From: Chromatiales bacterium
GTDB taxonomy: Bacteria; Pseudomonadota; Gammaproteobacteria; JAGRGH01
DNA: 51,133 nt
Assembly: GCA_020445605.1 (NCBI GenBank)
Contig: JAGRGH010000052.1
Span: 1 to 51,133 of the forward strand
Direction of reading: 5' to 3'
Shown here one piece after another: positions 38,666 to 50,892 of the stretch. Position 1 is the first letter of the stretch; the number at the start of each line of letters is the position of its first letter. Made by a program: the position numbers and the translations under genes. The notes beneath the pieces are model-generated. The model did not search any database, was not told where the DNA came from, and saw only the letters and a list, made by a program, of their open reading frames with translations.

Positions 38666-39529
38666 ATGCGCCCGTCGGACTGGGACGACCCGTCGGTCTG
38701 GCCCGCACCCGCGAAACTCAATCTCGGGCTGCGCGTCGTCGGCCGCCGGTCCGATGGCTACCACCTTCTCCAGACCGTCTTTCAGCTGCTCGATTTCGGT
38801 GACAGCCTGCGGTTTTGGCCTGCCGAGTCCGGGGCGATCAGCGTTGAACCGACCCTGGCCGGCGTCTCTGCGATCGATGACCTCTGCGTTCGTGCCGCGC
38901 GCCGGCTTGCCAGTCACGCGGGCGTGGCGACCGGCGTGCGCATCGGGCGGGTCAAGCGCATCCCGCTTGGCGGCGGCCTCGGTGGCGGGAGCTCGAACGC
39001 CGCGACGGTTCTGCTTGCGCTGAACCGGCTCTGGAACCTCGGGCTCGAAATTGACGAACTCGCGCAGATCGGACTCGGACTCGGCGCCGATGTGCCGGTG
39101 TTCGTGCGCGGGTGCAGCGCGTTTGCCGAGGGGGTCGGCGAACAGCTCCGGCCGGTCCGCCTTGCGGCGCGCTGGTTCGCCGTATTTACCCCGGCCGTTG
39201 CGGTGTCGACCGGCGCGGTGTTCGCCGATCCGCAATTGACACGTGACGCCAAACCACTGAAAATGCGCGACTTTCTTCGCGCTGGTCCAGAGAACGGTCT
39301 GGAGTCCGTCGTGCGCCGGATGGCCCCCGAGGTTTCCGTGCTGCTGGACTGGCTGGCGACGGAAACGGCCGACGGTGGGCTTACGGGCTCGGGATCGAGC
39401 GTTTACGCACCCTGTCCGTCGTATGCGGCGGGCACCGCGCTGCTGGCCCGGTGCCCGCTACCGGTTTCGGCTTTCGTTGCGCGGGGCGCCGATCGCTCGG
39501 CGACCCTGTCGAGGCTGGATCAGGCATAA
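38666..39529 (+). CDS. ispE: IspE, 4-diphosphocytidyl-2-C-methyl-D-erythritol kinase
   Basis: 287 aa GHMP kinase. WPAPAKLNLGLRVVGRRSDG holds the substrate Lys and Asn, and the ATP loop is PLGGGLGGGSSNAA. The C-terminal GLTGSGSSVYAPCPS closes the active site. It performs the ATP-dependent step of the MEP isoprenoid pathway. The next gene is tRNA-Gln, as in Pseudomonas. It follows the TPR gene with 22 bp. Confidence 0.95.
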   Translation: MRPSDWDDPSVWPAPAKLNLGLRVVGRRSDGYHLLQTVFQLLDFGDSLRFWPAESGAISVEPTLAGVSAIDDLCVRAARRLASHAGVATGVRIGRVKRIPLGGGLGGGSSNAATVLLALNRLWNLGLEIDELAQIGLGLGADVPVFVRGCSAFAEGVGEQLRPVRLAARWFAVFTPAVAVSTGAVFADPQLTRDAKPLKMRDFLRAGPENGLESVVRRMAPEVSVLLDWLATETADGGLTGSGSSVYAPCPSYAAGTALLARCPLPVSAFVARGADRSATLSRLDQA

Positions 39530-39554: not shown

Positions 39555-39629
39555 TGGGGCGTCGCCAAGTGGTAAGGCAACGGGTTTTGATCCCGTCATT
39601 CCCAGGTTCGAATCCTGGCGCCCCAGCCA
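39555..39629 (+). tRNA. tRNA-Gln (anticodon TTG)
   Basis: 75 nt with encoded CCA. Acceptor TGGGGCG/CGCCCCA, discriminator G, anticodon loop TTTTGAT (anticodon TTG) on stem ACGGG/CCCGT, T-arm CAGGTTCGAATCCTG. It lies between ispE and prs, the conserved place in gammaproteobacteria. Its 3' end is duplicated downstream. Confidence 0.97.
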
Positions 39630-39864
39630 TTTATGGCGCCAGGATGAGAACCTGGCAGGTTCGACAAAATCGCCGGGAGCGATTTTGAACGCGCGCAGCG
39701 CGGCCCGCAGGGCGCAGGGCAGGGACAGCCCGGAGTAATCCTGGCGCCCCAGCCATTTATGGCGCCAGATTGACGGCGCGAGGATGAGAACCTGGCAGGT
39801 TCGACAAAATCGCCGGGAGCGATTTTGAACGCGCGCAGCGCGGCCCGCAGGGCGCAGGGCAGGG
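39611..39864 (+). repeat. Tandem repeat starting in the 3' end of tRNA-Gln
   Basis: Two copies, period 126 bp: 39611-39736 and 39737-39864. Each begins with the tRNA 3' end (AATCCTGGCGCCCCAGCCA). Each continues with GGCGCCAG, AACCTGGCAGGTT, the hairpin AAAATCGC/GCGATTTT, GCGCGCAGCGCGG and GCAGGGCGCAGGGC. Copy 2 has a 14-bp insert (ATTGACGGCGCGAG, 39769-39782). TCCTGGCGCC (in the tRNA) can pair with GGCGCCAGGA just outside it. The duplicated tRNA end is the shape left by an integrase att site, but tandem hairpin amplification is another option. No gene is seen in 39630-39928. Confidence 0.8.
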
Positions 39865-39928
39865 GCGTGGTTGGGGAACCCAGCGTCGCGAGTGGTGCTG
39901 ATTTGTTCGTACTGGATCGAGACCGAGC

Positions 39929-40867
39929 ATGATCGTATTCGCGGGAAATTCAAACCGACCACTCGCCGAGGCCGTGACTGCGTATCTAAACCTGTCGCTT
40001 GGTCGCGCGTATGTCGGGCGCTTCAGCGACGGTGAGATCCAGGTCGAGATCGAGGAAAACGTCCGCGGCCGCGACGTGTTCGTCGTGCAGTCGACCTGTG
40101 CCCCGACCAACGAGCACCTGATGGAGATGCTCGTGATGGTCGATGCGCTGGTGCGCTCGTCGGCGGGTCGCGTGACAGCGGTGATTCCGTATCTCGGCTA
40201 TGCGCGCCAGGACCGTCGTCCGCGTTCGGCCCGGGTGCCGATCACGGCGAAGCTGGTCGCGAAGATGATCGGAGTGGCTGGCGTGGACCGGGTGCTGACC
40301 GTGGATCTGCACGCCGACCAGATTCAGGGCTTTTTCGACGTGCCGGTCGACAACGTTTATGCCTCGCCGATATTGCTTGGTGATGTATATCGGCAGAAAT
40401 ACCCTGATCTGATGGTCGTATCGCCGGACGTCGGCGGCGTGGTGCGCGCGCGGGCGCTGGCCAAACGGCTCGATGGCGCGGATCTGGCGATCATCGACAA
40501 GCGACGGCCGCGCCCGAACGAGGCGAAGGTCATGAACATCATCGGCGATGTCGAGGGCCGCAGCTGCGTGCTGGTCGATGACCTCGTGGATACGGCCGGC
40601 ACCCTGTGCCAGGCCGCTGCCGCGCTCAAGGAGCATGGCGCAACGCGGGTTGCGGCGTACTGCACGCACCCGGTGCTGTCCGGCCCGGCGCTGGCCAACA
40701 TACGCGCATCTGCGCTCGATGAACTCGTGGTCACCGACACGATTCCGTTGAGCGATGCGGCGCGTGAAATTGATCGGATTCGTCAGCTGTCGATTGCCGA
40801 GCTGCTCGGCGAGACGATGCGACGGGTGTATGACAACGAGTCGGTCAGTTCACTGTTCGTGGACTGA
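39929..40867 (+). CDS. prs: Ribose-phosphate pyrophosphokinase
   Basis: 312 aa. [16 protein letters not shown], the [14 protein letters not shown] block, [20 protein letters not shown], and the PRPP loop [12 protein letters not shown]. It makes PRPP from ribose-5-phosphate and ATP for nucleotide, His and Trp synthesis. ATG at 39929 matches the family N-terminus. It is followed by rplY. Confidence 0.97.
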
Positions 40868-50431: not shown

Positions 50432-50516
50432 GGAGGGGTTCCCGAGCGGTCAAAGGGGGCAGACTGTAAATCTGCTGGCTCCGCCTTCGGAGGTTCGAAT
50501 CCTCCCCCCTCCACCA
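50432..50516 (+). tRNA. tRNA-Tyr (anticodon GTA)
   Basis: 85 nt with encoded CCA and long variable arm. Acceptor GGAGGGG/CCCCTCC, anticodon loop CTGTAAA, T-arm GAGGTTCGAATCCTC. It is the first of the tRNA set upstream of tuf, as in E. coli (tyrU-glyT-thrT-tufB). Confidence 0.97.
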
Positions 50517-50610
50517 AAGTCCAGGGTGATTCGGTCCAGGACACGGGCGGTCTGGCATGGCCTGCGGAGCGATGAGCCCCGCGCCGGCTGGAGACCCGGC
50601 CGGGAACGAT

Positions 50611-50684
<74 letters not shown>

Positions 50685-50816
50685 TTTCACGTGAGGTGGT
50701 GGTTCTGGACCGGCGCCTGCCCGCCCGGACGCGGGGCTGGAACTGGTGACTGGCTGGGCGACAGAGCCGGGGCGAAACCCCGAGGAGCGCAGGGTACCTG
50801 CAACATTATGATTTAG

Positions 50817-50892
<76 letters not shown>

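Follow-up and report, generated by a model that had tools for sequence, protein, structure and literature searches.

The tRNA-linked repeats (TLRs) of Escherichia coli K-12 (Egan and Landy 1978; Rudd 1999) end in 18–19 nt that repeat exactly the 3′ terminus of the RNA gene immediately upstream (PMC8144298). Found in 1978, they had no known function as of 2021, and an early claim on recovery from amino acid starvation was retracted (PMC8144298). Three of them lie between rrn terminators and give rise to processed sRNAs with Hfq and CsrA as partners; the transcription and processing of RrA, RrB and RrF have been followed by Northern blot and S1 mapping, and for a 5S-linked TLR it has been proposed that the tail directs cutting as in the host RNA (PMC8144298). 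The Rfam family RtT (RF00391) includes rttR of the E. coli tyrT operon, which is an annotated small RNA in K-12. RtT homologues adjoin tRNA genes in Actinobacillus (Pasteurellaceae), as far as the accessible part of the source goes (PMC4986893), and partly accessible reports describe Salmonella serovars that differ in rtT copy number (VNTR; PMC2658671) and one strain that has lost RtT together with a tRNA-Tyr gene (PMC12584984). The available text of a further study places rtT-like elements upstream of gatY, rbfA, cvpA and other enterobacterial genes, assigns them to BIMEs and interprets them there as attenuators (PMC2965389).

The locus described here lies in the window, by which we mean the whole 51,133-nt stretch of DNA that was analysed. 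Between ispE (38666–39529) and prs (39929–40867), both named from the reading of their ORFs, a tRNA-Gln gene (anticodon TTG; 39555–39629, + strand; called by ARAGORN and at 64 bits by the Rfam tRNA model) is followed directly on its 3′ side, on the same strand, by two tandem units. The original prediction had pointed out that the last 19 nt of the tRNA (39611–39629), which we regard as the source of the unit 1 terminus, recur exactly at 39737–39755, with a spacing of 126; they do, inside a repeat family of 37 nt and 95% identity at this locus (D2). A second direct repeat relates 39629–39724 to 39769–39864 over 96 nt at 97% identity and a spacing of 140 (D1). The stem formed by TCCTGGCGCC and GGCGCCAGGA, also put forward at the outset, is present too, with 21-nt arms that are 90% complementary and lie 12 nt apart (I1).

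Unit 1 reads, in order, as a TTTAT spacer, GGCGCCAGGATGAGAACCTGG, a single C, AGGTTCGA, a 73-nt core and ATCCTGGCGCCCCAGCCA, all on the + strand. Its 5′ arm GGCGCCAGGATGAGAACCTGG (39635–39655) is an inverted copy of the T-arm and acceptor 3′ strand of the tRNA, 90% complementary to it, and supplies the 5′ strand of P1 and half of P2. The piece AGGTTCGA (39657–39664), identified from the sequence and by comparison with other units, copies the T-arm in the sense direction and ends in GA, and the core starts right after it. The core (39665–39737), delimited by the core model R1, by folding and by covariation, is predicted to form four hairpins, HpA (39665–39687, loop CGGGA), HpB (39690–39702), HpC (39703–39713) and HpD (39717–39731, loop AGGGACA); it scores 61.3 bits (E 5.7e-11) against R1, being itself one of the 58 training sequences of that model. 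The tail ATCCTGGCGCCCCAGCCA (39738–39755) repeats the tRNA 3′ end in the sense direction, CCA included, and forms the 3′ strand of P1. The predicted structure is a closed multi-branch with P1 (11 pairs), P2 and the four core hairpins, and free folding of 39630–39755 gives −62.1 kcal/mol, with a z-score of −3.7 and 0 of 200 shuffles as low. The stem had been thought to compete with the folding of the tRNA; such pairing can be drawn, but the predicted partner of the arm within the unit is the downstream copy of the tail.

In unit 2, the 5′ arm (39761–39804, +) holds a partly doubled antisense piece followed by AGGTTCGA, and the core (39805–39872, +; R1 38.4 bits, E 1.1e-5) is truncated at its 3′ end. 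The hairpin-rich tandem originally described does contain this second unit, but the unit lacks the tRNA tail and its match stops near 39864–39872. A simple scan placed no promoter or terminator between the tRNA and the units, and a weak terminator-like site past unit 2 (39881–39900).

At its cut-off, Rfam calls tRNAs alone in the window. A search by E-value rather than by gathering score returns RtT over its full length (model 1–130; 39623–39755, + strand) at 40.6 bits and E 1.5e-6, below the gathering cut-off of 45 bits; the three RtT units behind tyrV in E. coli K-12 score 133.8–137.5 bits. Unit 1 has the RtT consensus fold, with P1 made by an antisense arm and the tRNA tail, and the GAUGAG motif, and it has the 3′ identity of 18–19 nt to the adjacent upstream RNA gene that characterizes E. 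coli TLRs, an identity that is absent from unit 2. With the position behind a tRNA and the tandem arrangement, these features are shared with RtT of E. coli, from which unit 1 differs in its host (Gln as against Tyr) and in its loops, CGGGA and AGGGACA not being those of the tyrT unit. The window unit is a diverged member of the known RtT/TLR family. The full-length match, a fold 3.7 s.d. beyond shuffles and the units that this genome has at four further tRNA loci bear out that repeat and stem are not due to chance.

Similar units at other tRNA ends, whose absence would have counted against the original prediction on its own terms, are present both in this genome and across its class. RtT matches at E ≤0.001 occur in 65 of 369 genomes of the class (the window genome counted, which is the sole representative of its order in the compared collection) and amount to 127 units, in tandem in several genomes; in 23 of the 65 at least one match is above the cut-off of 45 bits, and in the other 42, the window genome included, none is. 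In the window genome, similar units stand at tRNA-Val, Ser-CGA and Ser-GCT and, more weakly, at Arg-CCG. At E ≤0.001, R1 finds seven cores there, all at tRNA genes (two at Gln, one at Val, two at Ser-CGA and two at Ser-GCT); the Gln and Val cores are 0.95 alike and their ends differ, each following its own tRNA. A tRNA-Ser(CGA) gene with its trailer (L019, 793–968) has a weak match to the sRNA sX4 (RF02223, 40.8 bits, cut-off 70), and sX4 may be a TLR relative. Compared with the TLRs as published (E. coli; other Enterobacteriales, for rrB; Pasteurellaceae), those seen here are wide in the class, have an inverted arm, interrupt tRNA copies and include dispersed cores.

The ends of the units follow the host gene. 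When tRNA finding was run on the loci of all 127 RtT units, 99 proved to be preceded by a same-strand tRNA no more than 700 nt away, with 12 kinds of anticodon (Gln, Tyr, Ser, Glu, Arg and Val); among the remaining 28, several are cut by contig ends and 8 have a same-strand tRNA downstream. In 74 of the 99 units, the tail agrees with the final 18 nt of its own tRNA at 18/18 positions, and in 88 the own tRNA gives a better match than every tail of another isotype; counting against the rule, the match to the own tRNA is poor in 16. For the inverted arm, a strict comparison with the complement of the acceptor end only favoured the own tRNA over all others in 32 of 78 units. Since the arm also copies the T-arm and variable region, it was retested on a longer tRNA stretch: against the reverse complement of the own tRNA the mean score was 14.2, as against 9.2 for other isotypes (78 units), with the own tRNA ahead of all others in 52 and its score reached by 0 of 50 shuffles in 60. 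The duplex of the arm with its own tail is predicted at −16.7 kcal/mol, compared with −11.7 kcal/mol for other isotypes, and the 5′ piece of the T-stem that precedes TTCGA favours the own tRNA by only a small margin (3.2 of 5 positions versus 2.6). In the best cases, the arm extends past what P1 needs and into the variable region, and so looks like an inverted copy rather than only a selected complement. Simple insertion does not account for this inverted arm.

Between these host-specific ends sits a shared and structured module. Core boundaries were clean in 103 of the 127 units (24 were dropped), 78 of them with an upstream tRNA, and 58 of the 103, one per locus and filtered on length, ends and likeness, make up alignment A1 and the core-only model R1, which is built from tRNA-linked cores. 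In these 58 cores, 16 of 18 stem pairs have changed on both sides, and 90.8% of paired cells are complementary, against 69.3% in shuffled and at most 41.5% in slid versions. The share of G-U pairs, considered as a way to tell DNA hairpins from RNA ones, was dropped for that purpose, as the core hairpins (2.6%) and tRNA stems (2.3%) do not differ. Between genomes, cores are as similar at different isotypes (median 0.558) as at the same anticodon (0.553; 68 loci in 49 genomes), which indicates that they were not simply inherited with one tRNA gene; rapid change of the core could blur such a signal. Within one genome, the similarity of cores at different isotypes is only a little higher, at 0.603 (20 pairs, p 0.0035), and for no more than 7 of 27 loci is the closest other core in the same genome. 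R1 matches 143 of the 369 class genomes. Of its best 30 loci, 24 have a tRNA, 23 of them on the same strand, a share at tRNAs that is overstated because the model was trained on tRNA-linked cores. At two loci (L240, 711–854; L303, 3678–3812), two cores lie back to back with no spacer, as though the second insertion had landed right behind the first.

Several loci hold cores inside copies of tRNA genes. In L095, three tandem copies of tRNA-Gln are split at the T-loop (GGTTCGA^core^ATCC) and followed by an intact tRNA-Gln, and T-loop-split copies of Ser-TGA and Gln tRNAs stand beside the intact gene in L081, L120 and L075. In L045, a core whose end lies in the D-loop of a tRNA-Ser copy precedes that copy (only the 3′ junction was read), the T-loop of the same copy holds a second core, and an intact copy is adjacent. 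At Ser-GCT of the window genome, two cores lie upstream of the intact gene, and the second of them comes after a 5′ half-copy of the tRNA that runs as far as the D-loop (GGCTGA); D-loop junctions were also read in two named genomes (L239 and L254). A scan for a sense tRNA copy ahead of the core found 7 among the 103 cores, in 5 loci, one of which (L104) was flagged by the scan alone. In the tRNA-linked loci that were read, an intact tRNA stands beside the unit and the tRNA is not lost.

Hosts other than tRNAs also occur. One unit lies behind tmRNA and carries a copy of its 3′ end (L057), and in L134–L136 the host is 5S rRNA, whose 3′ end is copied behind the core. The core of the enterobacterial rrn terminator spacer is 79–81% identical to that of the window over 63 nt, and from their place these spacers would be RrA, RrB and RrF, which share with the window the tail copying the 3′ end of the host RNA and the GGA loops, and differ from it in having 5S rRNA as host and in showing, by eye, no inverted arm of the kind seen in tRNA-linked TLRs. 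The rrn T1–T2 core is present in at least 4276 of 5426 E. coli genomes and may vary in presence between strains. A rule by which cores sit in loops is not borne out by the 5S-linked units: a 5S-like stretch precedes the core in L136 only (TGAGTAGGA, versus GAGTAGGGA in 5S), and none does in L134 or L135. The 5S position that matches the L136 stretch is one that we take not to be an apical loop.

In several genomes, near-identical cores have no tRNA within the 1.6–4 kb read around them. They sit inside repeats of about 200–250 nt whose arms differ between genomes; the loci examined were chosen for their dispersed look. In G246, versions of one site with and without the core, the mark of a mobile element, are found together. 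A palindromic repeat with the ends TTAACGTG...GAGTTAA is there in 28 empty copies (by exact pattern) and 12 filled ones, with the core at the same loop position: CTGGGA^GAGGGATGGGG when empty and CTGGGA-core-CAGGGATGGGG when filled. No target duplication was seen at the filled sites, and the G that originally follows the site has become a C wherever the core is present, which makes the insertion less than perfectly clean. With the core removed, the nearest empty copy is at least as near as the nearest filled one for 12 of 12 filled copies and strictly nearer for 9, one pair being identical. The tree of the repeat requires at least 9 changes and rejects a single filled clade (AU p 0.0035). Together, the tree and the nearest-copy result show that the core was gained more than once at a single loop position, whether through insertion or through conversion between repeats.

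Elsewhere the association with hairpins is less uniform. Clear inverted flanks were lacking from several members of a first set of 22 dispersed or non-tRNA cores, and among 47 dispersed cores picked by hand, a few per near-identical family, a flanking hairpin was significant in 22 (p ≤0.01 in 9), so a hairpin rule is not established for all cores. A scan of named genomes for one GGA core sub-type returned at least 118 stretches, of which 80 were used, with 88 of 104 model matches in those 80. Among the matches listed, the sub-type occurs in Rhodanobacteraceae, Thioalkalivibrio, Idiomarina, Rheinheimera, Marinicella and others, and two come from MAGs labelled Acidobacteria and Eremiobacteraeota; again among the matches listed, the two bases before the core are GA in 35 of 88 and CA in 44 of 88 (nearly all of the latter one Rhodanobacteraceae repeat), and 12 of 88 cores are by a tRNA. 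On a Pantoea plasmid, a core lies between the inverted-repeat arms CAGGGAACACGGTCAGA...TCTGACCGTGTTCCCTG downstream of fumA (L137, about 960–1165), another hairpin host. The rtT-like elements of BIMEs resemble these cores in occurring away from tRNAs in enterobacteria, a likeness drawn from the description, not the sequence, in the accessible part of that source (PMC2965389). Further afield, MITE-like elements, REPINs and IS200/IS605-derived palindromes are, like the core, short, non-coding, hairpin-rich and multicopy with no visible target duplication; compared by description only, the core is unlike them in lying within other hairpins after GA and in having no Y1 tie. We also entertain as a candidate idea, by assumption, that the enterobacterial Boxc is the same repeat as the core.

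Our reading of the window, which we consider probable, is that two tandem TLRs lie behind tRNA-Gln, the second of them decayed, with a core that is a loop-inserting miniature element and ends that derive from the host. We also lean, by a little, towards the broader proposition that the RtT/TLR core represents an unrecognized class of miniature mobile element that invades hairpin loops and adopts the stem of its host, the E. coli TLRs being domesticated or trapped copies. The non-coding 73-nt core, with its four hairpins, would insert after GA in the loop of a host hairpin, with the T-loop (GGTTCGA^), the D-loop (GGCTGA^) and the loops of dispersed palindromic repeats as landing sites, and, for the class as a whole, the T-loop region of tmRNA as a further one. 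The inverted and sense copies of the tRNA 3′ region would form a host-derived layer, pairing as P1 and closing the core. At RNA genes, only insertions into a duplicated part would survive, so that the gene remains intact and has next to it a unit composed of the core and ends taken from the host. The window unit would be transcribed by read-through from tRNA-Gln, and as its tail ends in the CCA of the tRNA, the tRNA 3′ maturation machinery could cut there and free the tRNA and the trailer RNA separately. Mobility as the cause of these patterns is inferred, as are, for this organism, the transcription and processing of the unit, known for the E. coli members, and any function that the released RNA may have. 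A mobilizing gene was not found in a search for one enzyme family (Y1_Tnp, PF01797). A Y1 (HUH) transposase was rejected as the mobilizer: its association with cores has an odds ratio of 2.9 (p 4e-6, relatedness uncontrolled), and Y1_Tnp is absent from 35 of the 143 core genomes, among them G299 with 11 cores (the Y1 list being one genome short). An origin in phages was likewise set aside, with three phage records only (two Salmonella contigs and one unannotated phage), all with the rrn-type core.

Direct repeats of tRNA 3′ ends flank islands at tRNA genes, and the exact 19-nt copy could in principle be such a footprint, left by a lost integrative element at the tRNA 3′ end. Of the two origins first proposed, this att scar and a processed small RNA, the latter is the better half, given an RtT/TLR element; the former is unsupported as written and we regard it as highly improbable. 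The stretch between the repeats is a conserved, structured, full RtT unit that recurs at many RNA genes and is in tandem in several genomes, the tails follow each neighbouring tRNA, units also stand behind tmRNA and 5S rRNA, and the core is found in D-loops and in unrelated dispersed hairpins. Good evidence does exist that the core itself is an insertion, into T-loops, D-loops and other hairpin loops. Tandem duplication with concerted evolution is a more serious alternative, and still an unlikely one: each tRNA would have an old, vertically inherited trailer RNA, and slippage, gene conversion and template switching would homogenize its copies and arms. Conversion could hold tails and inverted arms to the tRNA, and the tandem units have variable copy number, as in the rtT VNTR of Salmonella serovars reported in the accessible part of that study (PMC2658671), but the cores carry no isotype signal between genomes, empty and filled sites of one repeat coexist within G246, and cores lie in D-loop copies of tRNA genes. 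For G246 taken by itself, spread of the core among repeats by gene conversion rather than by new insertions is rather doubtful, if less so, as the arms, about 40–100 nt at near identity, are enough for conversion and the cores are nearly identical; it leaves unexplained both the arrival of the core at unrelated hairpins in other genomes and the GA site shared with tRNA loops.

A different explanation is that the core is a functional regulatory RNA under selection, for instance a CsrA- or Hfq-binding sRNA for each tRNA or rRNA, whose spread reflects function together with horizontal transfer. We hold this as a tentative possibility, short of even. It would fit the strong covariation and the loops, since HpA and HpD of the window both have GGA and resemble CsrA sites, and GGA goes together in the two loops, with 20 cases of both, 11 and 3 of a single one and 53 of neither among 87 genome and loop combinations (Fisher p 3.8e-9, phylogeny uncontrolled). 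By loop type, HpD has GGA in all scored units of 18 of 54 genomes, in none in 33 and mixed in 3. For the unit behind tmRNA, HpD is GUACAGGGAUGUAC, which we take to fit the CsrA consensus. Binding of both CsrA and Hfq is on record for RrB, the 5S-linked TLR of E. coli; the remaining 19, tRNA-linked E. coli TLRs are below 0.01 for CsrA binding (PMC8144298). Also against a regulatory role, csrA is found in 58 of the 65 TLR genomes without separating GGA from non-GGA genomes, one genome of the GGA type that is 98% complete has no csrA match (G195), and many cores lie in dispersed repeats with no RNA gene in the 1.6–4 kb read. A CsrA sponge as the reason for the family was rejected as the main account and stays as an alternative: the GGA loops pair up but the presence of csrA does not track them. 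The window genome itself has csrA, and in its contig C54 the gene immediately precedes the tRNA-Ser(GCT)/Arg pair with the core-holding D-loop copies (L020, about 178–1213); csrA near TLR-bearing Ser genes recurs in several genomes.

A loop-inserting core would account for the oddest feature of TLRs, a tail identical to the neighbouring RNA gene, and would unite the RtT RNA, the enterobacterial rrn terminator spacer and unnamed dispersed hairpin repeats. The literature, searched mostly without subscription journals, gave no account of the TLR core as mobile or as entering T- or D-loops, nor a match to words of the core sequence; rtT-like elements away from tRNAs are already on record, in the accessible part of one study (PMC2965389), and the word 'mobile' is absent from the TLR report (PMC8144298). 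A hairpin present in the same genome both with and without the core reveals the insertion site and makes the question testable, and landing sites in tRNA loops are relevant to the way in which essential RNA genes are colonized by small elements. If mobility of the core is correct, it would persist in such genes because an intact host copy adjoins it, and E. coli TLRs, as trapped or domesticated copies, would each carry the 3′ end of their neighbour for that reason. A natural empty site is offered by the tRNA-Tyr/Gly/Thr cluster of the window (50432–50892), where model R1 finds no core; in other genomes (L141, L149 and L160), TLRs stand behind tRNA-Tyr in the same cluster.
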